NCBI RefSeq assembly: GCF_015690345.1
Contig: NZ_JADPUN010000102.1
Location: 1-46,820 of the forward strand
DNA from: Plantactinospora alkalitolerans
GTDB lineage: Bacteria; Actinomycetota; Actinomycetes; Mycobacteriales; Micromonosporaceae
Direction of reading: 5' to 3'
Length of the DNA: 46,820 nucleotides
A model generated the notes under the pieces. It searched no databases and was not told where the DNA came from. It saw only the letters and a list, made by a program, of their open reading frames with translations. Positions 9,580 to 23,833 of the stretch are shown here, in pieces. Position numbers and translations under genes: made by a program. Each line of letters opens with the position of its first letter. Within the stretch, counting starts at the first letter, position 1.

Positions 9580-11019
9580 TCACCACCGTCCGGACTCACC
9601 GCCCGGCGCGCCGATGTGCACCGCCTTGGTGACGGTCAGCTCGTCCAGCAGCTCCGGGCCGTACCCGAAGCCCTGGCCGCTACCCCCGCGCGGCTCGGCC
9701 GCACCGCCGGGCGCGCCTCCGAAGACCGCGTTGATCTTCACGGTTCCGACCGGCAGCTCCCGCCAGGCGCGTTGTGCGTTGCTCATCGAGGCGGTCAGTA
9801 CGGTTGCCGCCAGGCCGTACCGGGAGTTCGACGCCCGGGAGAGAGCCTCGTCGAACGACTCCACGACCATCACCGGGGCCACCGGTCCGAAGGTCTCCTC
9901 CCGCATCACCAGCATCTGGTCGGTGCACTCGCCGAGCACGGTCGGTGGGTAGAAGGCGCCCGGCCCGTCGGGGACCGCCCCGCCGAGCAGGACCGACGCG
10001 CCGTCCGCCACGGCCGCCCGAACCTGGTTGTCCACGTGGTCCCGGTGCCGCCGGTCGACCAGCGGTCCCATCTCGGTACGCGGATCCCGGCCCGGCCCGA
10101 CCCGCATGGCGCCGGCGGACTGCACCAGCGCACTGAGGAACCGGGTGGCGATGGGCCGGAGGACGTAGATCCGCTCCACCGACACGCAGAGTTGCCCGGA
10201 GTTCGCGAACGCGCCGATCGCGGCCTGCTCGGCGGCCCAACGCGGGTCGACGTCGCCGTCCACGATCAGTGGATCGCTGCCGCCGTTCTCCAACAGCGCC
10301 TTGGCGCCGGTCCGGGCGCAGGCGGCGGCGATGGAACGACCGGTGGCGGTCGAGCCGACGTGGGCGACGACGTCGACATCCTGGCCGGCCAGGATGGCAC
10401 CCACCCCGCCGTCCCCGGTCAGCATCGACAGGACTCCGGACGGCAGGTGCTCGTCGAGCAGTCGGGCGAGCAGGAAACCGCAGGCCGGGCTCCGCTCGCT
10501 CGGCTTGTAGACGACCGCGTTGCCGGTCACCAGGGCGGCACCGAGCAGGCCGCAGGAGACCGCCACCGGATCGTTCCACGGCGTGATGACCGCGACGATT
10601 CCCCGTGGCTGGGGCACCATCAGATCGATCGCCCCGGCGTCACCGGCGAGACTCCGGCCGCCGCGTACCGGACCCAGTTCGGCGTACTGGCGCAGGGTCG
10701 ACACGCCGGCCTCGACCCCGCCCCGGGCGAGCGCCAGAGGTCGTCCCAGCTCGGCGGTCTGGGCCTCGGCGAGCTGGTCGGCGACCGCCTCGATCGCGTC
10801 CGCCATGCGGCGCAGTGCCGCCGCCCGCTCCGCCGGTGCGGTCCGGGCCCAGCCGGGTGCCGCCGACCGGGCCGCCTTGACCGCCGCACCGACCTCCGCC
10901 TCGGTGGCCACCGGCGCCTCGCTGACGGGTGTGCCGTCGACCGGGTCGAGCACGGTCAGCCGCCCCGCGTCGCCGTCCGCGCCCCACACCCCGCCGATCA
11001 GTTGCTGGATCTGGTACAT
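9580..11019 (-). CDS. NAD(P)+-dependent aldehyde dehydrogenase
   Basis: About 479 residues from ATG 11019 (MYQIQQLIGGVWGADGD). Hallmarks of the ALDH superfamily are VAVITPWNDPVAVSCGLLGAAL, the cofactor-contact VVYKPSERSP, HVGSTATGR, the general-base Glu in LLENGGSDPLIV, and the catalytic Cys in ANSGQLCVSVERIYV; EETFGPVAPVMVVESFDEAL follows. ENGGSD replaces the usual ELGGKSP, a mild variation. A GTG at 11067 would add 16 residues, but those codons have fewer GC third positions and no ribosome binding site, so I prefer 11019. The substrate is not predictable. It is divergent from the FAD oxidoreductase gene. Confidence 0.88.
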   Translation of the reverse strand: MYQIQQLIGGVWGADGDAGRLTVLDPVDGTPVSEAPVATEAEVGAAVKAARSAAPGWARTAPAERAAALRRMADAIEAVADQLAEAQTAELGRPLALARGGVEAGVSTLRQYAELGPVRGGRSLAGDAGAIDLMVPQPRGIVAVITPWNDPVAVSCGLLGAALVTGNAVVYKPSERSPACGFLLARLLDEHLPSGVLSMLTGDGGVGAILAGQDVDVVAHVGSTATGRSIAAACARTGAKALLENGGSDPLIVDGDVDPRWAAEQAAIGAFANSGQLCVSVERIYVLRPIATRFLSALVQSAGAMRVGPGRDPRTEMGPLVDRRHRDHVDNQVRAAVADGASVLLGGAVPDGPGAFYPPTVLGECTDQMLVMREETFGPVAPVMVVESFDEALSRASNSRYGLAATVLTASMSNAQRAWRELPVGTVKINAVFGGAPGGAAEPRGGSGQGFGYGPELLDELTVTKAVHIGAPGGESGRW

Positions 11020-11022
11020 GAA

Positions 11023-11056
11023 GGGCAGTTTGCCCGGGACAGGGCCGGCCAAACTA
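11023..11056. promoter_or_regulatory. Nested inverted repeats before the aldehyde dehydrogenase gene
   Basis: GGGCA-GTT-TGCCC (11023-11035) is a perfect 5-bp-arm palindrome directly before the ATG. AGTTTG (11028-11033) is also repeated inverted as CAAACT 17 bp further on. This could be an operator or mRNA hairpin. Confidence 0.3.
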
Positions 11057-11262
11057 TCCCGTTTCACGCTTTCACCGGCGAATAACGGATTCTCCGCGCC
11101 ACTGAAACCTGTGCCGTCCGACCTGATGATGGTGATGCCGTCCTGCCCGGTGATGGTCCGGGCCTGCCACGGCCGCCTACCCCCCGGAGGACAGGTGGGC
11201 TACCGATCGTGCCCCAGGGCGGAGCACTGCCTGGACCATCGGCGGTCAACCGATGGACCCGA

Positions 11263-11274: not shown

Positions 11275-12876
11275 ATGGTGACCGTCGGGGACACCGCCGA
11301 CGCGGTCGTCGTCGGCGCGGGACACAACGGGCTGGTCGCGGCGAACCTGCTCGCGGACGCCGGATGGGACGTACTGGTCCTGGAGGCGACCGCCGATCCC
11401 GGTGGTGCCGTGCGGTCGGCCGAGGTGACCGCGCCCGGCTACCTCAGCGACCTGTACAGCGCCTTCTACCCGCTCGGATACGCCTCGCCGGTGTTGCGTG
11501 GGCTGGAGTTGGACGGCTACGGACTGGCCTGGCGGCACGCGCCGGACGTACTGGCCCACCTGTTTCCGGACGATCGGGCCGTGCTGCTGCACCGCGATCC
11601 GGAGGTGACCGCAGCCTCCGTCGAGCGGTTCGGGGCCGGCGACGGCCAGCGTTGGCTGAGCGCGTACGACGAATGGCGGCAGATCTCCGACCCCCTGCTC
11701 GACGCGCTGTTCACGCCCTTTCCACCGGTACGCGGCGGACTCGCCCTGGCCCGCCGGCTGCGTACCGCGGGAACGCTGCGGATGGGCCGTCGCCTGGTCC
11801 TGCCGATCCGCAGACTGGGTGCCGAGATGTTCGCCGGCTCGGGCGCCACCGCCCTGATGGCGGGCTGCGCACTGCACACCGACCTGTCCCCGGACGAGGC
11901 GGGCTCCGGGGTGTACGGCTGGCTGCTGGCGATGCTGGGCCAGCAGGTCGGCTGGCCGGTACCGGTCGGCGGCGCACAACGCATCACAGACGCCCTGGTC
12001 GCCCGGCTACGGGAGCGCGGCGGACGGATCCACTACCGCACCCCGGTCGATCGGATACTGGTCGCCCGGAACCGGGCGATGGGTGCCCGCTCGACGGACG
12101 GCCTACTGTGGCGGGCCCGTCGCGCGGTGCTGGCCGACGTACCGGCCCCGGCACTCTTCCTGGACCTGGTCGGTGCCGCCCGGCTGCCCACCCGGCTGGT
12201 GGAGGATCTGGCGCACTTCCGCTGGGACGGCTCCACGGTCAAAGTGGACTGGGCACTGGCCGGCCCGGTGCCGTGGCGGAATCCCGAGGTGGCCGGCGCC
12301 GGCACGGTCCATCTTGGTGCCGACCTGGACGGACTCAGCCGGTACGCCTCGGCGCTGCACCGGGGCGAACTGCCCGCCGAACCGTTCGTGCTGGCCGGGC
12401 AGCTCAGTGTGGCGGACCCGAGCCGGTCGCCGGCCGGTACGGAGTCACTCTGGGCGTACACCCATCTGCCGTTCCGCCGGCACTGGTCGGCGGAGGAGAT
12501 CGGCGAGCGGGTCGAGGCGGTGGAGGCGGTCCTCGAACAGGCGGCGCCCGGCTTCGGCAAGCTCGTCCGGGGTCGACACGTGGCCGGGCCGGGCGAGCTG
12601 GCGGCCGGCAATCCGAGCCTGGTCGGCGGGGCGCTCGGCGGGGGCACGTCCGCCGCGTACCAACAGCTCTTTCTGCGCCCGGTGCCCGGTCTCGGCCGGG
12701 CGGACACGCCGGTCGACCGGCTGTTCCTGGCCAGCTCGTCGGCGCATCCCGGCGGTGGGGTGCACGGCGGGCCCGGAGCGAATGCCGCACGGGCCGCACT
12801 GGCCCGGGACCGGGCCCTCACGGGCCGGGCGTACGCCGCCGCCCTGGCAGCAGCCCACCGCGCCATCTACTCCTGA
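11275..12876 (+). CDS. FAD-dependent oxidoreductase, phytoene desaturase (CrtI)/PYROXD2-like
   Basis: 533 residues. The N-terminal Rossmann motif ADAVVVGAGHNGLVAANLLA is followed by LVLEATADPGGAVRS, the FAD-binding pattern of the CrtI/amine-oxidase superfamily. The C-terminal FAD motif is RLFLASSSAHPGGGVHGGPG around residues 482-501. In overall length and in the SDLYSAFYPLGYASP region it resembles the PYROXD2-like branch rather than carotenoid desaturases, and no carotenoid genes lie nearby. The substrate is unknown. The gene is single, starts from a probable leaderless promoter, and ends at the strong hairpin at 12882. Confidence 0.82.
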   Translation: MVTVGDTADAVVVGAGHNGLVAANLLADAGWDVLVLEATADPGGAVRSAEVTAPGYLSDLYSAFYPLGYASPVLRGLELDGYGLAWRHAPDVLAHLFPDDRAVLLHRDPEVTAASVERFGAGDGQRWLSAYDEWRQISDPLLDALFTPFPPVRGGLALARRLRTAGTLRMGRRLVLPIRRLGAEMFAGSGATALMAGCALHTDLSPDEAGSGVYGWLLAMLGQQVGWPVPVGGAQRITDALVARLRERGGRIHYRTPVDRILVARNRAMGARSTDGLLWRARRAVLADVPAPALFLDLVGAARLPTRLVEDLAHFRWDGSTVKVDWALAGPVPWRNPEVAGAGTVHLGADLDGLSRYASALHRGELPAEPFVLAGQLSVADPSRSPAGTESLWAYTHLPFRRHWSAEEIGERVEAVEAVLEQAAPGFGKLVRGRHVAGPGELAAGNPSLVGGALGGGTSAAYQQLFLRPVPGLGRADTPVDRLFLASSSAHPGGGVHGGPGANAARAALARDRALTGRAYAAALAAAHRAIYS

Positions 12877-12939: not shown

Positions 12940-14205
12940 TCAGCTCGCCGACTCCTTCGGCACCTTGGGGCGGCGCTTGGTCGTCCGGCTCGCCGGCACG
13001 GTCGTCCGGTCCGCCGCGCCGGACTTGTTCTCCGGGGCCTTCTTGCCCGCGGTCGGGCGCTCCGGAGCGTCCGGGGTCTCCTTCGTCGTCGCCTCGATCG
13101 AGGGAGCGGCGTCCGGGGTCTCCTTCGTCGTCGCCTCGATCGAGGGAGCGGTCGCGGTTGCCTCGGCGAGTGCGGAGGCCGGCGGCGTGACTGTGGCGGA
13201 TTCTTCGGTGACCGTCGGGGCTTCCGCCGTGACCGGCGGCGCGGCATCCGGGACCGCGGTCGCTGCCGTGTCGGGCCGGGTGGTCGCCGGGTCGGCCGGG
13301 GTGGTCAGGGCGTCGGCCGGGCTGGTCGCTGCCGGGTCGGCCGGGGTGGTCGCCGGGTCGGTCGGGGTGGTCGCCGGGTGAGCCGGGATGGCCGCCGGGT
13401 TGGTCGGGCCGCCCCGCAACGTCGCCGACCTGCCGTCCGTCCGGGTGATGTTGCGGTGCCGGCCGCGCAGCTTGAAGGGCATCAGCGCGCTTTCGATCTT
13501 GGTGGCCGTGGTCATCTTCGAGTCGCCCTCCAGGCGTTCCTGGAACCGGATCGGCACCTCCAGGATGGTGTGCCCGAGCTTGGTGGCGAGGTAGTGCATC
13601 TCGACCTGGAAGCTGTATCCGTTGGACTGGACCCGCTCCAGGCCGATGTCGTGGAGGGCGTCGGCACGCCAGATCTTGAAACCGGCGGTCAGGTCCCGGA
13701 TCCGCACCTGGAGCAGCGTGTGGACGTAGAAGTTCGCCCACCCGCTGAGCGCGCGCCGGTAGAACGGCCACGCCTCGTCGAGCTGTCCGCCGGGTACGTA
13801 TCGGGAGCCGATCACGACACCGGCCCGGGTGGACAGCAACGAGCCGAGCATGCCGGGCAGCGCCTCGGGCGGGTGGGACAGGTCGGCGTCCATCTGTGCG
13901 ACGTACTCCGCCCCGCTGTCCAGCGCCCGGCTTATGCCGTCGACGTACGCCCGCCCGAGCCCTTCCTTGCCCGGTCGGTGTACGACCTGGATCCGGTCCG
14001 GGTGCTCGATTGCCAGTTTGTCCGCGATCTCGCCGGTGCCGTCCGGTGAGTTGTCGTCGGCGATCAGGATGCTCAGCCCGGGCAGCGGCAGGGCGAGCAG
14101 CCGCTCGACCAGCACCGGAATGTTCCCCGCTTCGTTGTAGGTCGGAACGACGACGGTCAGGCGAGCGTCCCGCCAGGGGGAGGGCAGCTGTACGGGTTCG
14201 ATCAT
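12940..14205 (-). CDS. GT2 polyprenyl-phosphate mannose synthase-like glycosyltransferase with long repeat tail
   Basis: 421 residues from ATG 14205, with GAGG 9 nt upstream. Residues about 15-250 form a DPM1-like GT2 core: LTVVVPTYNEAGNIP, LIADDNSPDGTGEIAD, the DxD metal site in AQMDADLSHPPEALP, and GSRYVPGG. No transmembrane helices follow, as in soluble polyprenol-monophosphomannose synthases. The known role is transfer of mannose from GDP-mannose to polyprenyl phosphate for later membrane-side glycosylation. Residues about 270-421 are a Pro/Ala/Thr-rich, probably disordered tail with internal repeats, ending very basic (TTKRRPKVPKESAS). The tail is absent from classical members. Divergent from the heptose operon. 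Confidence 0.85.
   Translation of the reverse strand: MIEPVQLPSPWRDARLTVVVPTYNEAGNIPVLVERLLALPLPGLSILIADDNSPDGTGEIADKLAIEHPDRIQVVHRPGKEGLGRAYVDGISRALDSGAEYVAQMDADLSHPPEALPGMLGSLLSTRAGVVIGSRYVPGGQLDEAWPFYRRALSGWANFYVHTLLQVRIRDLTAGFKIWRADALHDIGLERVQSNGYSFQVEMHYLATKLGHTILEVPIRFQERLEGDSKMTTATKIESALMPFKLRGRHRNITRTDGRSATLRGGPTNPAAIPAHPATTPTDPATTPADPAATSPADALTTPADPATTRPDTAATAVPDAAPPVTAEAPTVTEESATVTPPASALAEATATAPSIEATTKETPDAAPSIEATTKETPDAPERPTAGKKAPENKSGAADRTTVPASRTTKRRPKVPKESAS
13067..13150 (-). repeat. 42-bp tandem duplication in the GT2 tail
   Basis: Two essentially identical 42-bp copies (13067-13108, 13109-13150) encode a 14-residue unit, APSIEATTKETPDA. Upstream in the same tail, 13250-13390 holds looser repeats encoding TTPADPA. 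Confidence 0.85.
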
Positions 14206-14508
14206 CGGGGCATCCTCGGTTGGCCGACAGCGGTCAGGGGCAAAGCGTAACTTGACGTAGAGCGCGGGCCACAACACGGGCCGAACGGTGCAAACCAGCC
14301 GTCACCTCGGACGGCACGCCACAACGGCCTCCTCCATCGATCCACCAGCGTTGGCGCAGCGCCCCGGAGCTGCACGGGAGCACCGGGATCGGCCGGATAT
14401 CGGGACGGGCCCGGGGTATGAGGACGAGGATCCGGTGTCGCGGGCGGAAGCGCCGTTCGGTGGGTGACGCCGGGCGTACCCGCCGTGCCCGTCCGCCGGG
14501 CGGAGGTG
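14206..14508. promoter_or_regulatory. Divergent intergenic region before the heptose operon
   Basis: About 300 bp between the GT2 start and the heptose operon. It must carry the operon promoter. I see a GGCGGAGGTG ribosome-binding-like stretch at 14499-14508, but no convincing -35/-10 pair and no long palindrome. The rightmost part may be coding if the fusion gene starts at GTG 14464. Confidence 0.4.
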
Positions 14509-16458
14509 ATGTTTACTCCTCCTGCTCCAGGGAACCCGCCCGCCGTGCGAAACGACCAGGTCGACCCGCATCAGTGCAGGTCAGGGGCACCGCACGGTGG
14601 CCCGGCCGGGGTGTGGGCCAGACCCGGTCTGTTCGACGCGGTGCTCTTCGACCGGGACGGCACCCTGGTGTACGACGTGCCGTACAACGGTGACCCGGCC
14701 CGGGTCTGCGCCATGCCGGGCGCGGCAGAGGCCCTGGACCGGCTCCGGGCCGCCGGCCTGCGCCTGGGTGTGGTGACCAACCAGTCCGGCATCGCACGCG
14801 GCCGGTTCACCGCCGCCGATCTGGCCCGGGTCAACGCCCGGGTCGACGAGATCCTGGGTCCGTTCGACACCTGGCAGGTGTGTCCGCACGCGGAGCCGGA
14901 CCCCGGCGCGGAGTCGTGCCGTTGCCGCAAGCCCGCTCCCGGACTGATCCGGGACGCGGCCCGGGCGCTGCGTACCGATCCCACCCGGTGCATCGTGGTC
15001 GGCGACATCGGTACCGACATGACGGCGGCCGGCGCGGCCGGGGCCAGCGGAATACTTGTCCCCACGCCCGTCACCCGGGCCGACGAGGTGGCGGCGGCAC
15101 CGGCGGTCGCCGGAACTCTACTGGACGCGGTCGACCTGATCCTCCACCGTCACCGATTGGCCGACACCGCTCGACCCGGGGACGTCCCACGGGGGCGCCC
15201 CCGCTGTGTGCTCGTCGCCCGACCGGATTCGGCCGGGGACGTGCTGGTCACCGGCCCGGCGATCCGGGCGGTGGCGGCCGGGGCGGACCGGGTGGTGATG
15301 CTCTGCGGACCGCGTGGCCGGGCCGCCGCCGAACTGCTGCCCGGCATCGACGAACTGATCGAGTGGCGGCTGCCCTGGATCGACCCACAACCGGACCGGA
15401 TCGACCGGGCCGAAGTGGACCGGTTGACGGCTCGACTGGCCGGAGTCGGCGCGGACGAGGCCGTGCTGTTCACCTCGTTCCACCAGTCCGCACTGCCGCT
15501 CGCGCTGGTGCTGAGGATGGCCGGAGTGGGGCGGATCTCGGCGATCAGCGACGACTATCCCGGATCGCTGCTCGACGTACGGCACCGGGTACCACCCGGT
15601 ATCCCGGAGACCGAGCGGGCGCTGTCGCTCGCCGCGGCGGCGGGATTCCAGCTACCTTTCGGCGACGAGCCGGTGCTCCGGCTGCGGCGGGCCGACGCTC
15701 CGCCAGTCGTCCGAGCCGGCGGACCGTACGCCGAGCCGGCCGGCGACGAACTGCCCGAGCCGGGCTACGTGGTGGTGCATCCCGGCTCGTCGGTGCCGGC
15801 CCGGGCCTGCCCACCCGAACTTTGCGCGGATTTCGTCCGGGCACTGGCCGCCGCCGGGCACCGGGTGGTGGTCACCGGCGGACCCGGCGAGGGGGCGTTG
15901 ACCGCGCAGGTCGCCGGCCGTACCGGAATCGACCTCGGCGGGCAGACCTCGCTGACCGGGCTGGCCGGGATCATCGCGCGGGCCGGCTGTCTGGTGGTCG
16001 GCAACACCGGCCCGGCACACCTGGCCGCCGCACTGGGCATCCCGGTGGTCAGCCTCTTCGCCCCGACGGTCCCGTTCGGACAATGGGGGCCGTACCGGGT
16101 GCCCACCGTACGCCTCGGCGACGCCGACGCCGGCTGCCGGGACAGCCGGGCCAGCGCCTGTCCGGTGCCCGATCATCCGTGCCTGTCCGAGATCGATCCG
16201 CGTCAGGTGGTCGAGGCGGTCCGGTTGCTCCGTCGCGGCGCACCCGCCGCTGGTCCTGCTCCTACTTCCGGCGCTGGTCCTGCTCCTGCTTCTGCCGCTG
16301 GTCCCGCCGCTGCTTCTGCCGCTGGTCCTGCTCCTACTTCTGCCGCAGCTTCTGCCGCTGGTCACTCGACCCCGGCTCTGACCGGCAGCGGCACCTCGGG
16401 CGGCCTGGTGGTACCCGTCGGGCCGACCCGGTCCGACGTCCGGGAGGTCCGACCGTGA
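14509..16458 (+). CDS. Fusion: GmhB-type heptose bisphosphate phosphatase + GT9 heptosyltransferase-like domain
   Basis: About 649 residues. The first domain (about 40-230) is a HAD phosphatase with FDAVLFDRDGTLV, VTNQSGIARGRF, a GmhB-like zinc site (CPHAEPDPG then SCRCRKPAPG) and VVGDIGTDM. The second (about 235-580) is GT9-like: HPGSSVPARACP, VVTGGPGEG and VVGNTGPAHLAAALGIPVVS. GmhB makes heptose 1-phosphate from the 1,7-bisphosphate; GT9 enzymes transfer heptose from ADP-heptose. The tail is an octapeptide repeat. The start is uncertain: GTG 14464, ATG 14509 (GGAGG only 2 nt away), GTG 14545 and GTG 14611 are all in frame, and the HAD domain begins near 14632. First gene of an overlapping operon. 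Confidence 0.85.
   Translation: MFTPPAPGNPPAVRNDQVDPHQCRSGAPHGGPAGVWARPGLFDAVLFDRDGTLVYDVPYNGDPARVCAMPGAAEALDRLRAAGLRLGVVTNQSGIARGRFTAADLARVNARVDEILGPFDTWQVCPHAEPDPGAESCRCRKPAPGLIRDAARALRTDPTRCIVVGDIGTDMTAAGAAGASGILVPTPVTRADEVAAAPAVAGTLLDAVDLILHRHRLADTARPGDVPRGRPRCVLVARPDSAGDVLVTGPAIRAVAAGADRVVMLCGPRGRAAAELLPGIDELIEWRLPWIDPQPDRIDRAEVDRLTARLAGVGADEAVLFTSFHQSALPLALVLRMAGVGRISAISDDYPGSLLDVRHRVPPGIPETERALSLAAAAGFQLPFGDEPVLRLRRADAPPVVRAGGPYAEPAGDELPEPGYVVVHPGSSVPARACPPELCADFVRALAAAGHRVVVTGGPGEGALTAQVAGRTGIDLGGQTSLTGLAGIIARAGCLVVGNTGPAHLAAALGIPVVSLFAPTVPFGQWGPYRVPTVRLGDADAGCRDSRASACPVPDHPCLSEIDPRQVVEAVRLLRRGAPAAGPAPTSGAGPAPASAAGPAAASAAGPAPTSAAASAAGHSTPALTGSGTSGGLVVPVGPTRSDVREVRP
16246..16365 (+). 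repeat. 24-bp coding repeat, octapeptide (A/G)AGPAPTS tail of the GmhB-GT9 fusion
   Basis: Four 24-bp units (16246, 16270, 16294, 16318) and two partial ones encode GPAPTS-type octapeptides. Nearly every codon ends in T (GCT, GGT, CCT, ACT, TCT), unlike the rest of the gene, which is almost all G/C-ending. Confidence 0.85.
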
Positions 16459-17432
16459 ACATCCTGCTCTGGCACGTGCACGGATCATGGACCACCGCAT
16501 TCGTGCACGGCAAGCACCGGTACCTCGTCCCGGTGACCCCGGACCGCGGCCCGTACGGGCTGGGGCGGGCACGCACCTACCAGTGGCCGGACACCGTCGA
16601 CGAGGTGTCCCCGGAGAAGCTGGCCGACGCGGACGTCGACCTGGTGATCCTGCAACGGCCCGAGGAACTCGACCTCGCGTCCGAGTGGCTGGGCCGGCGG
16701 GTCGGCGGGGACGTACCGGCGATCTTCGTCGAGCACAACACGCCGAAACAGGGGGACGTGCCGAACAGCCGGCACCCGATGGCGGACCGCGACGATCTGC
16801 TGATCGCACACGTCACACACTTCAACGCGCTGTACTGGGACACCGGCGGGACCCGGACGGCCGTGGTAGAGCACGGAATCGTGGCACCGACCGCGCACTA
16901 CACCGGCGAACTGGATCGGCTCGCGGTGGTGGTCAACGAGCCGGTCCGCCGGTGGCGGGTGACCGGGACCGATCTGTTGCCCCGGTTCGCCGAGATCGCT
17001 CCGCTCGACGTCTTCGGGATGGGTGTGGCCGGGCTGCCGGACCGGCTGGGACTGCCGGCCGACCGGATGACCGTCTACGACGACCTGCCGCAGAGCCGGA
17101 TGCAGGCGGAGATCGGGCGGCGGCGGGCGTACCTGCACCTGTGCCGGTGGACCTCGCTGGGGCTGAGCCTGATCGAGGCGATGGCAATGGGCATGCCGGT
17201 GGTCGTGCTCGCCGCGACCGAGGCCGTCGCGGCCGTACCGCCGGACGCCGGGGCGCTGTCCACCCGGATCGACACCCTGACCGATGCCGCCCGACGGCTT
17301 CTCGAGGAGCCGGCGACGGCCCGCCGGCTCGGTGCCCGGGCCCGCGAGGCGGCGCAGGCCCGCTACGGCCTGGATCGGTTCCTGACGGACTGGGATCGGT
17401 TGCTGGAGGAGGAACTATGCGCGTCGCGATGA
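16455..17432 (+). CDS. GT4-type glycosyltransferase of the heptose operon
   Basis: 325 residues from GTG 16455, whose GTGA overlaps the stop of the fusion gene. It opens VNILLWHVHGSWTTAFVHGKH, like the first strand and acceptor loop of a GT-B enzyme. The C-terminal half has the donor-site region CRWTSLGLSLIEAMAMGMPVVV, which matches the E-x7-E motif area of GT4. The shorter-than-usual length (GT4 is often 370-420) reflects a compact N-terminal domain. It presumably adds a hexose or heptose to the glycan built by this operon; donor and acceptor are unknown. Confidence 0.8.
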   Translation: MNILLWHVHGSWTTAFVHGKHRYLVPVTPDRGPYGLGRARTYQWPDTVDEVSPEKLADADVDLVILQRPEELDLASEWLGRRVGGDVPAIFVEHNTPKQGDVPNSRHPMADRDDLLIAHVTHFNALYWDTGGTRTAVVEHGIVAPTAHYTGELDRLAVVVNEPVRRWRVTGTDLLPRFAEIAPLDVFGMGVAGLPDRLGLPADRMTVYDDLPQSRMQAEIGRRRAYLHLCRWTSLGLSLIEAMAMGMPVVVLAATEAVAAVPPDAGALSTRIDTLTDAARRLLEEPATARRLGARAREAAQARYGLDRFLTDWDRLLEEELCASR

Positions 17433-18634
17433 TCTCCGAGCACGCCAGCCCGCTCGCCGTGCTCGGCGGCGAGGACGCCGGTGGCCAGAACACCCACGTG
17501 GCCGAACTCTCCGCCGCACTCGCCGATGCCGGACACGACGTCCGGGTCTACACCCGGCGGGACAACTCGGCCGGGCCGACGGCGGTACGGATGCGCGACG
17601 GCGTCGAGGTGGTGCACGTACCCGCCGGGCCGCCGGAGCCGATCGCCAAGGACGAGATGTTGCCGTACATGAAGGACTTCAGCCGGTGGCTGGTCGCACA
17701 GTGGCGCGGCGACGGCTGGGTGCCCGACGTGGCCCACGCGCACTTCTGGATGAGCGGGCTGGCCGGGATCGCCGCCGGTCGGCAGACCGGAATTCCGGTC
17801 GTGCAGACCTACCACGCGCTGGGCACCGTCAAGCGGCGGCACCAGGGCGCGATGGACACCAGCCCGGCCCGCCGGGTCGGCTACGAACGGGCCCTGGGCC
17901 GGGCCGTGGACCGGGTCATCGCGCAGAGTCAGGACGAGGTCCGGGAACTGGTCCGGATGGGTGTGCCCCAGTCCCGGATGACGGTGATCCCGTCCGGGGT
18001 CAACGACGAGACCTTCTCACCCGACGGCCCGGCCGTGCCCCGGGTACCGGGTCGGCCCCGGATCCTGACCGTGGGCCGGCTGGTGGAGCGCAAGGGCTAC
18101 CAGGACCTGATCCGGGCCATGCCGATGATCCCGGACGCCGAGTGCGTGGTGGTCGGCGGACCGCCGGCCGGCGAGGTCGACGACGACCCACAGGTGCGAC
18201 GGCTACGGGCGCTGGCCGAGGAGGTCGGGGTGGCCGACCGAGTACGGCTGATCGGCGCCGTGCCGCGCGAGGAGATGCCCTACTGGTACCGCTCCGCCGA
18301 CGTGCTCGTCGCCGCTCCCTGGTACGAACCGTTCGGGCTCACCCCACTGGAGGCGATGGCGTGCGGAGTGCCGGTGATCGGCACCGCGGTCGGCGGGCTC
18401 ACCGACACGGTGGTGGACGGCAGCACCGGCGACCTGGTGCCGCCCCGCGATCCCACCGCGCTGGGCACCGCCGTCCGGGACCTGCTGGCCGACCGGGTAC
18501 GCCGGTTCGCGTACGCCGGTGCGGCCCTCGACCGGGCCCGGCGGTGGTACTCGTGGACCCGTACCGCCGACCAGATCGCCGCCGTCTACGCGACAGTCAG
18601 CGAGGTACGACGGCCGAGCGGGGTGGTCGCCTGA
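17417..18634 (+). CDS. GT4 glycosyltransferase
   Basis: 405 residues from ATG 17417, preceded by an excellent GGAGGAGGAACT ribosome binding site and overlapping the previous gene by 16 nt. A full GT4 layout is visible: VAMISEHASPLAVLGGEDAG with the GGE loop, HAHFWMSGL, VIPSGVNDETFSP, LTVGRLVERKGYQDLI, and EPFGLTPLEAMACGVPVIG with the two catalytic-region Glu. It resembles MshA/sucrose-synthase-like actinobacterial GT4 enzymes, which retain anomeric configuration and usually use UDP- or GDP-sugars. Its place in the operon suggests work on the same glycan as the GT9 domains. Confidence 0.88.
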   Translation: MRVAMISEHASPLAVLGGEDAGGQNTHVAELSAALADAGHDVRVYTRRDNSAGPTAVRMRDGVEVVHVPAGPPEPIAKDEMLPYMKDFSRWLVAQWRGDGWVPDVAHAHFWMSGLAGIAAGRQTGIPVVQTYHALGTVKRRHQGAMDTSPARRVGYERALGRAVDRVIAQSQDEVRELVRMGVPQSRMTVIPSGVNDETFSPDGPAVPRVPGRPRILTVGRLVERKGYQDLIRAMPMIPDAECVVVGGPPAGEVDDDPQVRRLRALAEEVGVADRVRLIGAVPREEMPYWYRSADVLVAAPWYEPFGLTPLEAMACGVPVIGTAVGGLTDTVVDGSTGDLVPPRDPTALGTAVRDLLADRVRRFAYAGAALDRARRWYSWTRTADQIAAVYATVSEVRRPSGVVA

Positions 18635-19407
18635 TGACCGGATCGACGGACGTGCTGGACAGCCACCTCGCCGGACTCGCCTCCGCGCTGCTGCCGTACC
18701 GGACGGAGGCGGGTCGGCTCGACCGCTGGGGCGACGAACTGGCCCGACTGCTCGCCGGGGGCGGCCGGCTGCTGGTCGCCGGCAACGGCGGCAGCGCGGC
18801 CGAGGCACAGCACCTGGCGGCCGAACTGGTCGGCAAGTTGTGCGACGACCGGGCACCGTTGTCCGCGATCGCGCTCTGCGCCGAGACCTCGTCGCTGACC
18901 GCGATCGGCAACGACTACGGCTTCGACGAGGTCTTCGCCCGGCAGGTACGGGCACACGGGCGATCCGGAGACATCCTGCTGCTGCTCTCCACGAGTGGCC
19001 GCAGCGCGAACCTGGTCCGGGCGGCGCGCGCCGGCCGGGAACTCGGGATGCGGTGCTGGGCGTTCACCGGCCCGACCCCGAACCCGCTCGCCGACGCCTG
19101 CACCGAGGTCCTTGCGGTGCCGTCGCAGGACAGCCAGGTCGTACAGGAGTTGCACCTGGTCTCGGCGCACGTGCTCTGTGCCTACGTCGACGCGTACCTG
19201 CCGGTGCTGTTCGGGCCGGCCGGCGGGTACGGCACCGGCCAGCGCCTGCCCGCCGCCACCCCGTACGCCGACTCGGCTCCGGCCCGTCCCGGATCCGCTC
19301 CGGCGCACTCCACCACCGGGCAGGTACGACCGTCCGGTGTCGAGGACGAACTCGTGCTGCGGGTGCCGGGAACCCTGGACCTTCACCGGGGCGAGGAGGG
19401 GCCGTGA
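18634..19407 (+). CDS. gmhA: Phosphoheptose isomerase-like SIS protein
   Basis: 257 residues from ATG 18634 (TGATG, one-base overlap with the gene before). Residues about 30-195 are a SIS domain with VAGNGGSAAEAQHLAAELVG, LSTSGRSANLVRAARAGRE and QVVQELHLVSAHVLCAYVD, matching GmhA: the conserved Ser/Thr of the phosphate cradle and the QE(x)H helix are present. GmhA isomerises sedoheptulose 7-phosphate to D-glycero-D-manno-heptose 7-phosphate. About 55 extra residues at the C-terminus are Pro/Ala/Ser-rich, then hydrophilic; classical GmhA is about 190-200 residues. The neighbours supply the next steps of ADP-heptose synthesis. Confidence 0.88.
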   Translation: MTGSTDVLDSHLAGLASALLPYRTEAGRLDRWGDELARLLAGGGRLLVAGNGGSAAEAQHLAAELVGKLCDDRAPLSAIALCAETSSLTAIGNDYGFDEVFARQVRAHGRSGDILLLLSTSGRSANLVRAARAGRELGMRCWAFTGPTPNPLADACTEVLAVPSQDSQVVQELHLVSAHVLCAYVDAYLPVLFGPAGGYGTGQRLPAATPYADSAPARPGSAPAHSTTGQVRPSGVEDELVLRVPGTLDLHRGEEGP

Positions 19408-21107
19408 CCAGAAAACTGGTGGTCGTGGGCGACACGCTGCTCGATCGGGACGTGGAGGGCGTGGTGAACCGGCTCTGCCCGGACTCACCGGTCCCGGTGC
19501 TGGACGAGAACAACAGCGTCGACCGACCCGGTGGGGCGGGTTTGGCAGCGCTCTTCGCCGTCGGACGGGGATTCGAGGTCGCCCTCGTCACGGCGTTGGC
19601 CGACGACGAGGGGGGAGCGCGGCTGAGTTCCCTGCTCACCGCAGCCGGGGTGCAGATATACGGGCTTCCGCTGCCCGGTGCCACCCCGGAGAAGATCCGG
19701 CTGCGGACCCGGGGGCGGGTGCTGCTGCGTCACGACCGGGGTGGACCGGCCGGGCCGCCCGGTGAGCCGAGCGACGCCGTACTGGAGTTGCTGGCCGGTG
19801 CGGCGGGGATCCTGGTCAGCGACTACGGGCGGGGAGTGGCTCGGCTGCCGGCCCTGCGGGTGGCGCTGGCGAACACCACCGCACCGATCGTCTGGGATCC
19901 ACATCCGCGGGGACCGGCAGCGGTTCCCGGCGTACGACTGGCCACCCCGAACGAGGTGGAGGCGCGGGAACTGGCCGGGCTGGCGAGCGGTGGCTCGCGG
20001 CTGGCGATCGCCTCGCGGTGCGCCCAGGCCCTGCGCCAGCGGTGGCGGGTCGGTGCGGTGGCGGTGACCCTGGGCGGCGAGGGCGCCCTGCTCTCGCACG
20101 CCGGCGCCACGCCGCTGGCGGTCGCCTCGCCGACCTGCGCCGACGGTGACACCTGCGGTGCCGGTGACCGGTTCGCCGCCGCGGCGACCCTGGCGCTTGC
20201 GGACGGGGCGCTGGTCTCCGAGGCCGTGCAGCAGGCGGTGGCCGAGGCTTCCGGGTACGTGGCCGACGGTGGCGTCGCGACCGCCGTGCCCGCCGCCTCG
20301 GTGGCGGGACCGGTGCACCCGGCCGGCAAGGCGTCCAGGTCGACACCAGCGGTGGGCAGGCCGGCACCCGGATCGACACCAGCGGTCGGCGGGTCGGCAC
20401 CCGGGCCGGTACGAACGGCGCCCGGGTCGGTGCCAGCGGTCGGCGGGTCGGCCCCCGGGCCGGTACGAGCGGCCGGTGAGGCGCCCTCGTCGGCCGGCAC
20501 GATCCGGCCCGGTTCGGCGGGCCGCACCCGGTCCGGAGCATCCGGGCAGGGACGGACCCGTGTCCAGGACCGGTCCGGTGCGCCGGTCACGGCGGTGGGC
20601 TGGAGTGACCGGATCGGCGCTCGGGCCGCCGGTGACGTGGTCGCCCGGGTCCGGGCCGCCGGCGGCACGGTCGTGGCGACGGGCGGCTGTTTCGACCTGC
20701 TGCACGCCGGTCACGTGGCGACGCTTGAGGCGGCCCGGCAACTCGGGGACTGCCTGGTGGTGTGCGTCAACTCCGACGACAGCGTGACCGGGCTGAAGGG
20801 GCCGGACCGGCCGTTGGTCCGGCACGCCGACCGGGCCCGCCTGTTGGCCGCCCTCGGCTGCGTGGACGCCGTACTGATCTTCGACGAGTCGACCCCGCAC
20901 GCGGCGTTGTCCTGGCTGCGCCCGGACGTCTGGGTCAAGGGCGGCGACTACGGCACCGGTGCGGACGGGCCGGACCTGCCGGAGGCGGAGATCCTGCACC
21001 GCTGGGGTGGGAACACCGTGGTGGTGCCGTACCTGGACGGCCGCTCGACCAGCGAGATGATCGCCGCTGCCCGGGCCGGTGGCCGACCGGGAGGACGGGC
21101 CCGGTGA
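19404..21107 (+). CDS. hldE: Bifunctional heptose 7-phosphate kinase / heptose 1-phosphate adenylyltransferase
   Basis: 567 residues from GTG 19404 (GTGA overlap with gmhA). The N-terminal PfkB-type kinase (about 1-300) has LVVVGDTLLDRDVEG, RPGGAGLAAL and the catalytic DTCGAGDRFAAA motif. The C-terminal nucleotidyltransferase (about 415-560) has ATGGCFDLLHAGHVATLE with the HxGH motif and VWVKGGDYGTGADG. Between them is a linker of about 110 residues with VGGSAPG repeats, much longer than in enterobacterial HldE (about 477 residues total). The enzyme phosphorylates heptose 7-phosphate at C1, and after GmhB action makes ADP-heptose. Confidence 0.92.
   Translation: MTRKLVVVGDTLLDRDVEGVVNRLCPDSPVPVLDENNSVDRPGGAGLAALFAVGRGFEVALVTALADDEGGARLSSLLTAAGVQIYGLPLPGATPEKIRLRTRGRVLLRHDRGGPAGPPGEPSDAVLELLAGAAGILVSDYGRGVARLPALRVALANTTAPIVWDPHPRGPAAVPGVRLATPNEVEARELAGLASGGSRLAIASRCAQALRQRWRVGAVAVTLGGEGALLSHAGATPLAVASPTCADGDTCGAGDRFAAAATLALADGALVSEAVQQAVAEASGYVADGGVATAVPAASVAGPVHPAGKASRSTPAVGRPAPGSTPAVGGSAPGPVRTAPGSVPAVGGSAPGPVRAAGEAPSSAGTIRPGSAGRTRSGASGQGRTRVQDRSGAPVTAVGWSDRIGARAAGDVVARVRAAGGTVVATGGCFDLLHAGHVATLEAARQLGDCLVVCVNSDDSVTGLKGPDRPLVRHADRARLLAALGCVDAVLIFDESTPHAALSWLRPDVWVKGGDYGTGADGPDLPEAEILHRWGGNTVVVPYLDGRSTSEMIAAARAGGRPGGRAR
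20340..20477 (+). repeat. Imperfect coding repeat in the HldE linker
   Basis: Three units starting 20340, 20373 and 20427 encode S(T/V)PAVG(G/R)(S/P)APG, the last two extended by PVR(T/A)A. The codons keep the GC-rich bias of the gene. Confidence 0.8.
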
Positions 21108-21823
21108 GCGCCGGGAGGACGGCTGCCGACGATCTCCTGGCCTCCGGCGGCGCGGTGCTGATCAGCGGTGGCGCCAGTGGGCTCGGCGCGGCGGTGGCGA
21201 GCGCGGTCGCCGGGGTGGGCGGTCGGCCGTACGTACTGGACCGGCAGGCCCCGACCGCCGGGGTGCCGTGGCTCGAATGCGACCTGGCCGACACCCGCGC
21301 CGCCGAGGCGGCCACCCGGGAACTCGCCGAGCAGGCGGGCGGACTGGTCGGCGTGGTCACCGCCGCCGGTGTCGACGTACCGGGGCGGCTGGGCGACGTA
21401 CCGGCACAGACCTGGGAGCGGGTCGTCACGATCGACCTGCTGGCCACCGCGGCGGTGATCCGGGCCGCGCTGCCGTACCTGGAGCGCTCGGGCGGCACGG
21501 TGGTGACCGTGGCCTCGACCCTCGGCGTGAAGGCGGTCGGGGACGCGACCGCCTACTGTGCCGCCAAGTTCGGCGTGGTGGGCTTCACCCGGGCCCTCGC
21601 CGCCGAGCTGGCCGGCGTGGTCGGGGTGACACTGCTGGTTCCGGGCGGCATGCGTACGGCATTCTTCGACGAGCGCGATCCGCAGTACCGTCCCGGGGCC
21701 GACGCCGTACTCAACGAGCCGGCCGACGTTGCCTCGGCCGTACTGTTCGCGCTGCGCCAGCCGGCCGGATGCGCGATCCGGGAGATGGTGGTCTGCGCCG
21801 ACCGGGAATCGTCGTACCCGTGA
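21104..21823 (+). CDS. Classical SDR oxidoreductase in the heptose operon
   Basis: 239 residues from GTG 21104 (GTGA overlap with hldE). The cofactor loop is LISGGASGLGAAVASAVAG (TGxxxGxG variant), with VTAAGVDVP in the NAG position, and a catalytic Ser in VASTLGVKAVG with YCAAK giving the Tyr and Lys. Length and motifs fit a classical FabG-like SDR, not an extended SDR of the HldD (ADP-heptose 6-epimerase) type, which is about 310 residues. It may oxidise or epimerise the sugar or nucleotide sugar made by its neighbours, but that is inference. Confidence 0.85.
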   Translation: MSAGRTAADDLLASGGAVLISGGASGLGAAVASAVAGVGGRPYVLDRQAPTAGVPWLECDLADTRAAEAATRELAEQAGGLVGVVTAAGVDVPGRLGDVPAQTWERVVTIDLLATAAVIRAALPYLERSGGTVVTVASTLGVKAVGDATAYCAAKFGVVGFTRALAAELAGVVGVTLLVPGGMRTAFFDERDPQYRPGADAVLNEPADVASAVLFALRQPAGCAIREMVVCADRESSYP

Positions 21824-22863
21824 TCCTGGTGCTGCGTGCGCTCGGGGTGGGCGACCTGGCGACAGCGGTCCCGGCGCTGCGCGGGTTGCGCGCCGCGTTC
21901 CCCGGACACACCCTGTCGATTGCCGCGCCGGACTGGCTGACCCCGCTGGCGGAGCTGATCGGCGACGTCGACAACGTCATTCCCGCCAACGGGCTGGACC
22001 CGGTCGACTGGGCCGGGCCGGCACCGTACTGGGCGGTCAACCTGCACGGGCGGGGGCCGCAGTCGCACCGGCTGCTCGGCTCCGCCGACCCGGAACGCCT
22101 CTGCGCCTTCCAGTGTTCCGAGGCCGGGCATCTCGACGGTCCACAGTGGCGACAGGACGAGCACGAGGTGCATCGCTGGTGCCGCATGCTGACCTGGTAC
22201 GGCGTTCCGGCCGATCCGGACGACCTGGACCTGCGCCGCCCGGCACCCCGTCGGGTACCGGTCGGGGTGAGCGTGCTGCATCCGGGCGGCAAGGGCACCG
22301 CGCGCCGTTGGTCCCCGGGCCGGTTCGCCTCGCTGGCCCGGGAACTGGCCCGGACCGGGCATCGGGTGGTGGTGACGGGCTCGCCGGACGAGCGGGATCT
22401 GGCGGAGCGGATCGTGGCCGGCGCCGGCCTGCCGAACACGGCGGTGCTCGCCGGTCGACTCGACCTGGTGGAGATGGCTGCCGTGGTGGGGCACGCCCGC
22501 CTGGTGGTCAGTACGGACACCGGAATCGCCCACCTGGCGACCGCCTACCGGGTCCCCTCCGTCGTTCTGTTCGGGCCCGTCCGACCGGAGTTCTGGGGGC
22601 CGCCACCGGACCGCCCCTGGCACCGGGCGCTGCACGCCAGCGTCACCCCGGCCCGGTCGGCACCGGCGTCGGTCATTGCCGGTGCCGATCCCGCAAGGGC
22701 CGGGATGCACCCTGCCGTTTCGGCCGGGCCGGCGTCGGTCGTCGCGGGTGCGGACCTGGCCGGGATGCACCCTTCGTTGGCGGCGATCGAGGTGGACGAG
22801 GTGTTGACGGTGGTGGGTGAGGTGGAGCGGGCGGGACGGAGCTGCGGTGCGGCTACGACGTAG
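21820..22863 (+). CDS. GT9 heptosyltransferase-like glycosyltransferase
   Basis: 347 residues from GTG 21820 (GTGA overlap with the SDR). The start is typical of GT9: ILVLRALGVGDLATAVPALR. Further motifs are SVLHPGGKGTARRWSPGRFA, RVVVTGSPDERDLAE and the donor-site LVVSTDTGIAHLATAYRVPS. The final 60 residues are Ala/Gly/Met-rich with two HP(A/S) repeats (AGMHP). LPS heptosyltransferases (WaaC, WaaF, WaaQ) belong here and use ADP-heptose. The acceptor in this Gram-positive is unknown; a cell-surface glycan or a secreted glycoside are the options. Confidence 0.88.
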   Translation: MILVLRALGVGDLATAVPALRGLRAAFPGHTLSIAAPDWLTPLAELIGDVDNVIPANGLDPVDWAGPAPYWAVNLHGRGPQSHRLLGSADPERLCAFQCSEAGHLDGPQWRQDEHEVHRWCRMLTWYGVPADPDDLDLRRPAPRRVPVGVSVLHPGGKGTARRWSPGRFASLARELARTGHRVVVTGSPDERDLAERIVAGAGLPNTAVLAGRLDLVEMAAVVGHARLVVSTDTGIAHLATAYRVPSVVLFGPVRPEFWGPPPDRPWHRALHASVTPARSAPASVIAGADPARAGMHPAVSAGPASVVAGADLAGMHPSLAAIEVDEVLTVVGEVERAGRSCGAATT

Positions 22864-23833
22864 TGACCTGTCGGCACCGGGGTACGGGCGGCGTCGGCAC
22901 GGTCGCGGCGTGGTCTTCCTGGACACGGAAGGCCGGCCGATCCGGGACCGGGAAGAGCTGACCCGGCTCCGTGACCTGGTCATTCCCCCTGCCTGGAAAG
23001 ACGTCTGGATCTGTCCGCATCCGGCGGGGCACGTCCAGGCGGTCGGCACCGACGCGGCCGGGCGGCGGCAGTACCTCTACCACCCGACCTGGCGGCTCCG
23101 GCGGGACCAGGCGAAGTTCGACCACGTACTGGAGGTGGCCACCCGGCTGCCGATCCTGCGCGAACGGATCGGTGCGGACCTGGCCGGGCGGGGCCTGGGC
23201 CGACCCCGGGTGCTGGCGACCGTGGCCAGCCTGCTGGACATGGGGACCTTCCGGATCGGCAGCGACCAGTACGCGGCCGGCGACGACCCGACGTTCGGGG
23301 TGGCCACGCTGCGTCCCGAGCACACCCGGACCCGTCAGGGCGCGGTGGTGTTCGAGTTCCCGGCCAAGGGTGGGATCGCGCAGGTGCGGCGGATCGACGA
23401 CGCCCAGGTCTGCCGGGTACTGCGTGACCTGCGTCGGCGTCGGCGCACCGCGCAGCGGCTGTTCGGCTACTGGGACGGCCGGTGTTGGCGGGACGTCCGG
23501 AGCGACGAGGTCAACGACTACCTGCGGAGGGCGAGCGGGGGTGAGATGACGGCCAAGGACTTTCGTACCTGGCACGCCACCGTGCTGGCCGCCACCTGGT
23601 TGGCGCGCAGCGACCCACAACGTTCAACCAGCGGGCGGCGACGTACGGTGGCGGCGGCGATGCGCGAGGTGGCCGGGCTGCTGGGCAACACGCCGACCGT
23701 GGCCCGGGCCTCCTACGTGCATCCGAGGATCGTCGACCTCTACCACGACGGCGTGGTCCTCGACGCGGCCCCGGACCCGGACCGGCGCAACGCCGAGGCC
23801 GCCGTGCTGGAACTGCTGCGAACGAAACGGTGA
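22847..23833 (+). CDS. DNA topoisomerase IB (poxvirus/eukaryote-like)
   Basis: 328 residues from GTG 22847 (VRLRRSDLSAPGYGRRRHGRG), overlapping the GT9 gene by 17 nt. A start at 22817 is possible but adds residues atypical for the family. Type IB features are IPPAWKDVWICP, HPTWRLRRDQAKFDHV, an Arg-Lys-type core (RIGSDQYA ... TLRPEHTRTR, FPAKGG), SGGEMTAKDFRTWHATVLAA and the C-terminal ASYVHPRIVDLY with the nucleophilic Tyr. It relaxes supercoils through a 3'-phosphotyrosyl link. The domain is widespread in actinobacteria, but its place at the end of a glycan operon is odd. It probably reads from the upstream transcript. Confidence 0.92.
   Translation: MRLRRSDLSAPGYGRRRHGRGVVFLDTEGRPIRDREELTRLRDLVIPPAWKDVWICPHPAGHVQAVGTDAAGRRQYLYHPTWRLRRDQAKFDHVLEVATRLPILRERIGADLAGRGLGRPRVLATVASLLDMGTFRIGSDQYAAGDDPTFGVATLRPEHTRTRQGAVVFEFPAKGGIAQVRRIDDAQVCRVLRDLRRRRRTAQRLFGYWDGRCWRDVRSDEVNDYLRRASGGEMTAKDFRTWHATVLAATWLARSDPQRSTSGRRRTVAAAMREVAGLLGNTPTVARASYVHPRIVDLYHDGVVLDAAPDPDRRNAEAAVLELLRTKR

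Follow-up and report, generated by a model that had tools for sequence, protein, structure and literature searches.

A predicted heptose operon in Plantactinospora alkalitolerans is colinear with the core of the actinobacterial cwg operon

The closest described counterpart of the locus considered here is the cwg operon of Streptomyces, for which PMC6767563 and PMC5882110 cite Hong 2002. Within the cwg cluster of S. coelicolor (SCO6179-6190), cwgH is listed as a phosphoheptose isomerase and cwgI as a bifunctional synthase/transferase (PMC5839063). The operon is a sigmaE target that is induced by vancomycin in a manner that depends in part on sigmaE (PMC6767563), and cwgE, which encodes a putative heptosyl transferase (PMC6767563, PMC5882110), is up-regulated in a ppm1 mutant (PMC5882110). 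Its product is referred to as a putative cell-wall glycan (PMC6767563, PMC5882110); the passages on the operon in these reports and in PMC5839063 give no structure, and a search of those in PMC6767563 for heptose found no mention. Two other systems serve for comparison, i.e., the Gram-negative pathway to ADP-L-glycero-D-manno-heptose (GmhA-HldE-GmhB-HldD, with the transferases WaaC/WaaF), and the Streptomyces pathways to the antibiotics septacidin and hygromycin B, where heptose is derived from sedoheptulose 7-phosphate in a Gram-positive organism (PMC10221265). Here, we analyze an operon found at 14545-22863 (+) in a 46,820-nucleotide stretch of DNA from the soil actinomycete Plantactinospora alkalitolerans (contig NZ_JADPUN010000102.1), referred to below as the window.

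Among 392 Streptomyces genomes, one contained an exact copy of the published 29-base cwg promoter string, printed for S. coelicolor at 147 nt ahead of the start (PMC6767563), and three others a copy with a single mismatch. In the exact-match genome, a GTG start is located 147 nt 3' of this string, as published, and is followed by a 12-gene operon that encodes, in order, an extended short-chain dehydrogenase/reductase (SDR), a carbamoyltransferase, a family-2 glycosyltransferase (GT2), GmhB, GT9, a further glycosyltransferase (GTx), GT4, GmhA, HldE, GT9, GT2 and GT2, where GmhA and HldE coincide with the published cwgH and cwgI. The window operon is colinear with cwgD-J of this order (identities 59/56% for D/E, 62% for F, 54% for G, 62% for H, 51/63% for I and 54% for J), i.e., it shares seven of the twelve S. 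coelicolor genes in the same order, with D and E fused. The surmise of an initial annotation that related clusters exist in Streptomyces was thus correct. The full cwgA-L order is not present: a tblastn search with the twelve cwg proteins yielded no match in the window for cwgA (extended SDR), cwgB (NodU-type carbamoyltransferase), cwgC, cwgK or cwgL (GT2s); for A, C, K and L, the search extended to the window only. A close cwgB is absent from the assembly as a whole, in which the best matches display 32-42% identity, compared to 67-77% for the cwgB of related loci. The window differs also in that a classical SDR, which is not found in the S. coelicolor, S. curacoi or Nocardioides operons, is inserted between I and J, and in its promoter-like element. 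On the evidence of homology and gene order, the window operon represents the conserved heptose core of an operon already described from actinobacteria, cwg, rather than an orphan cluster.

The seven genes are consecutive and overlap by 4, 16, 1, 4, 4 and 4 nt; the initial annotation had noted the overlaps, at a slightly too wide range of 1-17 nt. Pfam and NCBIfam scans, the former covering 11 window proteins with the remainder of the window outside the scan, recovered all the domains it had named (GmhA, HldE, GmhB, two GT9 and an SDR). The first gene (14545-16458, +; P0001, 637 aa) encodes a GmhB-type phosphatase fused to a GT9 domain (GT9a; Pfam E 2.8e-17). Its phosphatase part is a GmhB-like HAD domain (PRK08942, 112.4 bits; TIGR00213, 77.6 bits), for which the solved GmhB structures 4pnh and 2gmw are found behind an unnamed protein, 2o2x, and GT9a matches 3tov. 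It is followed by GTx (16455-17432, +; cwgF homologue) and by a clear GT4 (17417-18634, +; cwgG homologue; Pfam/NCBIfam). Two GT4 enzymes had been claimed, but in GTx the group-1 family matches are confined to the C-terminal part; its predicted structure (mean pLDDT 88.2) is GT4-like, with BshA as the best matches in the PDB (TMq ~0.7) and other GT4-type enzymes among the rest. GmhA, i.e., sedoheptulose-7-phosphate isomerase (18634-19407, +; cwgH homologue), scores about 150.9-152.4 bits with TIGR00441 (cut-off 209.45) and is the only strong match to this model genome-wide (runner-up 24.8 bits); its solved match is the phosphoheptose isomerase 2xbl (E 1.6e-42). The HldE-type kinase/nucleotidyltransferase (19404-21107, +; cwgI homologue) yields about 167.1-171 bits with rfaE_dom_II (cut-off 181.5) and 113.1 bits with rfaE_dom_I; the best solved match of the kinase domain is HldA 4e84 (E 5e-19) and that of the nucleotidyltransferase is 5x9q (E 7.6e-34), deposited as a putative cytidylyltransferase. 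The classical SDR (21104-21823, +; adh_short, E 5.9e-31) and the second GT9 protein, GT9b (21820-22863, +; cwgJ homologue; Pfam E 2.3e-24; solved match WaaF 1psw), complete the operon. At 567 aa, the window HldE is longer than the S. coelicolor-type cwgI protein (463 aa). Ala/Pro/Gly-rich repetitive stretches are seen by eye at domain ends and in the HldE linker (16240-16410, 20310-20580 and 22650-22790).

Conservation of functional sites was assessed in loci of close relatives: of the 517 confirmed relatives of the HldE in the window, the best 80 were used, such that the counts describe these relatives and not prevalence. Many of these loci end at contig ends, and their genes were called with a codon-based script of our own rather than taken from annotation. 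Motif counts refer to those of 81 loci (the 80 and an S. coelicolor-type locus, window excluded) in which the match spans the site. The kinase motif GAGD is found in 75 of 75, DRDGT of GmhB in 65 and DRDDT in 2 of 67, CxCRKP of GmhB in 67 of 67, QExH of GmhA in 75 of 77, and the Asp of DTG in GT9b in 78 of 78. All four predicted activities of a route to nucleoside diphosphate (NDP)-D,D-heptose, i.e., GmhA, HldE kinase, GmhB and HldE nucleotidyltransferase, are thus present with their catalytic motifs. Two substitutions stand out. The Asn of the kinase motif GGxxN, which we take to be a substrate-site residue of the PfkB-type heptose kinases, is present in HldA 4e84 but is Leu in the window (GGAGL) and in 76 of 76 relatives, and the residue that is Asp in GT9b and WaaF is replaced by Asn in GT9a (69 of 70). 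In the STTR5 motif, (F/L)XXGRSTT, the Arg was tied to the use of CTP/UTP by Tang et al., as related in a commentary; this Arg is found in 68 of 73 relatives (His in 4, Tyr in 1), where the first position is mostly Tyr instead of Phe/Leu, and in the window (YLDGRSTS). Because of this Arg, the ADP-heptose route of the initial annotation, which otherwise stands on sequence and comparison, is better worded as a route to NDP-heptose. Judging from these motifs, the outline of the NDP-heptose pathway is preserved, with two substitutions that run through the family.

The annotated absence of HldD holds for the genome: in the assembly (96% complete), where all 39 candidates were scored, the best match to TIGR02197 reached 108.5 bits, compared to a cut-off of 274.6. 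The operon SDR was rejected as a disguised HldD because it is a classical SDR, and cwgA of S. coelicolor was rejected on scores of 146.4 bits with a dTDP-glucose dehydratase model and 66.9 bits with the HldD model (cut-off 274.6). Among 150 genomes of the family, HldD exceeded the cut-off in one (G501) and not in the other 149 (with at most 13 candidates per genome among the rows listed). The recovery of the G501 protein (375.3 bits) indicates that the search was able to detect HldD. It is encoded in a separate heptose locus (L122 5000-8965), where a kinase-like gene (recognized by eye), a nucleotidyltransferase gene, HldD and a GmhA-like gene follow one another; transporter-like genes are seen nearby, also by eye. 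Compared to the Gram-negative pathway, the window has four of the enzyme activities by domain, as well as GT9 transferases, but no HldD, no lipopolysaccharide (LPS) acceptor, a changed GGxxN site, and GmhB fused to GT9.

The operon is not the sole HldE locus of the genome, which the initial annotation had overlooked. A second HldE, on contig C380 (L092 8267-11211), scores about 202.5-206.7 bits with rfaE domain II, i.e., over the cut-off of 181.5, and keeps the Asn in its GGAAN kinase site, as do copies in P. mayteni, Micromonospora mirobrigensis and Actinomycetospora. It is followed by a GT2, and a GT9 gene is found nearby on the opposite strand (L092 15715-16821). In Actinomycetospora (L036 9884-15095), a cwg-type HldE and SDR are followed by a second-type HldE and its GT2. 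An rfaE domain II match at 1e-30 is found in 89 of the 150 family genomes, a count that does not separate the two types of HldE.

From these comparisons, we propose, with a probability of about two in three, that the operon is the heptose core of a cwg system which makes NDP-D-glycero-D-manno-heptose that is attached to an envelope glycoconjugate. The kinase domain of HldE would yield the 1,7-bisphosphate, from which the GmhB domain would remove the 7-phosphate, and the nucleotidyltransferase would form ADP-heptose, perhaps also CDP- or UDP-heptose; given that HldD is absent, the sugar would remain in the D,D form. GT9b, and perhaps GT9a, may transfer the heptose to a cell-envelope acceptor to which the two GT4-type enzymes would add other sugars. 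Among the products envisaged in the initial annotation, a surface glycan has prior support because the operon matches the core of cwg, for which regulation by envelope stress is documented, though for S. coelicolor alone, while a small molecule is less likely.

Several points weigh against this proposal. None of the operon genes encodes a flippase, polymerase or ligase, as one would expect if a glycan were exported. None of the operon proteins reaches an NCBIfam heptose equivalog cut-off, which suggests that they are divergent family members. With the GGxxN Asn missing from cwg-type kinases and Asp replaced by Asn in GT9a, the substrates may not be those of the LPS paradigm. A sigmaE-type promoter pattern (AAC ... 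TC; one regular expression) has a single match in the window, near 14144 and inside a divergent gene; since this is not a fitting place, the stress control known from S. coelicolor cannot be carried over to the window operon. Lastly, the name given to cwgD does not fit, but bifunctional proteins of the HisB type share a GmhB-like domain, and for this reason we infer that the name is an artefact and that the protein is a GmhB-like phosphatase. The name in question is that of SCO6182, which is labelled a putative dehydratase and not a phosphatase (PMC5839063).

The alternative that best withstands comparison, albeit an unlikely one, is that the kinase, GT9a or both use a sugar other than D-glycero-D-manno-heptose, such that the changes from Asn to Leu and from Asp to Asn mark a specialised branch. 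The near-invariance of both substitutions among relatives is consistent with this possibility, as are the Asn that the genome's second HldE retains and the proximity of both HldE types in Actinomycetospora. However, the cwg-type HldE is conserved together with GmhA and GmhB, both with canonical motifs, and this is difficult to account for unless heptose 7-phosphate and its 1,7-bisphosphate are involved; in addition, the nucleotidyltransferase domain scores well as HldE. Slightly less likely still, the operon could build a diffusible, heptose-containing specialised metabolite similar to septacidin or hygromycin B. Actinomycete heptose antibiotics derived from sedoheptulose 7-phosphate do exist (PMC10221265), although their likeness to the window is one of description and not of compared genes, and the operon is without export or ligation genes. 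On the other hand, no assembly-line or resistance gene is found among the 11 Pfam-scanned window proteins, the S. coelicolor orthologue is under envelope-stress control (PMC6767563), and the core order is kept over several families, often at one locus in the Micromonosporaceae (see below), unlike sporadic metabolite clusters. Glycosylation of proteins instead of a wall glycan appears the least probable, because the presence of several different glycosyltransferases suggests an oligosaccharide, the protein O-glycosyltransferases among the GTx fold-search matches reflect a generic GT-B fold, and the scanned neighbours suggest no substrate protein, even if a polyprenol-phosphate-mannose (PPM)-synthase-like neighbour (12940-14277) and the response of cwgE in the ppm1 mutant (PMC5882110) point in that direction. 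A bleomycin sugar cassette was dropped as a relative (the single paper retrieved showed no link to heptose), and for heptose in Rhodococcus polymers the literature yielded a single mention of gmhD.

When searched with S. coelicolor-type queries, the 80 related loci contained homologues of cwgA in 4, cwgB in 41, cwgC in 41, cwgD in 66, cwgE in 68, cwgF in 73, cwgG in 73, cwgH in 76, cwgI in 80, cwgJ in 77, cwgK in 9 and cwgL in 11. In the Micromonosporaceae, gene strings revealed two layouts at one locus that is bounded by genes for an aldehyde dehydrogenase (ALDH) and TopIB. In the first (Actinoplanes and relatives), ALDH is followed by cwgB, cwgC, the core and TopIB; in the second (the window, many Micromonospora and, as far as its contig end, P. 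mayteni), genes for a flavin adenine dinucleotide (FAD) oxidoreductase and a PPM-synthase-like protein are found in place of cwgB and cwgC. Loci of the family that harbor cwgB-cwgC (e.g., Actinoplanes/Paractinoplanes L045, Micromonospora L041) have the same core and the same SDR, and those of the Actinoplanes type share the ALDH-TopIB setting. Some Micromonospora carry an additional cwgB-C copy elsewhere, e.g., M. mirobrigensis (L012 and L041).

A five-segment FastTree phylogeny, built from the window and the 64 of 81 loci with all five segments, placed the window layout within the Micromonosporaceae as a 24-leaf clade (support 0.999). This clade includes L041, of the cwgB-C type, beside L012 of the same genome, as well as L013, L014 and L021, which are cut upstream; L069, which has the FAD gene without the PPM-like gene, was labelled as the FAD/PPM type by the script but falls outside. 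Because the window layout nests inside the Micromonosporaceae tree, the absence of cwgB-C looks derived, L041 excepted, the placement of which we guess to be due to recombination. In the window clade, the carbamoyltransferase module (cwgB, cwgC) would accordingly have been lost from the locus, and the operon would have a promoter of its own ahead of cwgD.

A candidate for this promoter is the element GTTTAC-N13-GGGAAC (14511-14535, +), which ends 9 nt 5' of GTG 14545. The previously annotated start, ATG 14509, is probably wrong, as the conserved in-frame start is GTG 14545, where the operon probably begins. Of the 24 anchored sequences in the window-layout group, window included, 22 have GTTTAC-N13-GGGAAC-N9-GTG at the phosphatase frame, with a spacer of 14 in L019 and a distance to GTG of 8 in L011; the misses are L014, cut by a contig end, and L069. 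Two of 42 other anchored loci, both of Phytohabitans (L040 and L077), also contain it. All 24 matches in the window and the 80 loci (3.07 Mb, both strands) are at the start of the phosphatase gene and in frame, a count that is descriptive since the pattern was noticed by eye beforehand. A wider form of the pattern has 4 sites genome-wide (reversed control, 0). Of the other three, one falls in the terminal part of a predicted gene, another in a region where no genes are predicted, and the third about 50 nt 5' of an ATG that the script did not call as a gene. The hexamers presumably resemble those of sigmaB/SigF-type promoters, and the short distance to GTG suggests a leaderless message. GGGAAC can also be read as an extracytoplasmic function (ECF)-type -35 element; 17 nt on, CGACCA is found, a combination that keeps the AAC but not the TC of the sigmaE consensus. 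A change of promoter type in the window layout is thus probable. A comparison of 14200-23000 with Rfam was negative, even with E values as high as 1 allowed.

The operon type itself has been described already; of interest are the recognition of the heptose genes as its constant part, the module loss, the probable promoter change, and the specialised kinase. For the putative glycan of the cwg operon, which responds to vancomycin in S. coelicolor, the shared heptose genes provide a testable sugar, D-glycero-D-manno-heptose, and they are relevant to the question of which Gram-positive species might produce NDP-heptoses, to which vertebrate ALPK1 responds. More tentatively, and with odds that we place clearly below even, heptose glycosylation may be a widespread and old envelope trait of Gram-positive actinomycetes. 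Its core would be almost invariant (GmhB, two GT9, two GT4-type enzymes, GmhA and a specialised HldE), modules (carbamoylation, GT2s, SDR) and even the sigma-factor control would be swapped between clades, and the two HldE proteins of one genome would split a single pool of GmhA-made heptose 7-phosphate between two glycans.

Upstream of the operon, the genes that occupy the cwgB-cwgC place of the relatives encode a CrtO/CrtI-like FAD oxidoreductase (11275-12876, +) and a divergently oriented GT2 that resembles polyprenol/dolichol-phosphate-mannose synthase (12940-14277, -), both of which are candidate members only. The ALDH gene (window 9580-11067) has been kept next to the cwg-type locus by many relatives, whichever of the two layouts they have.

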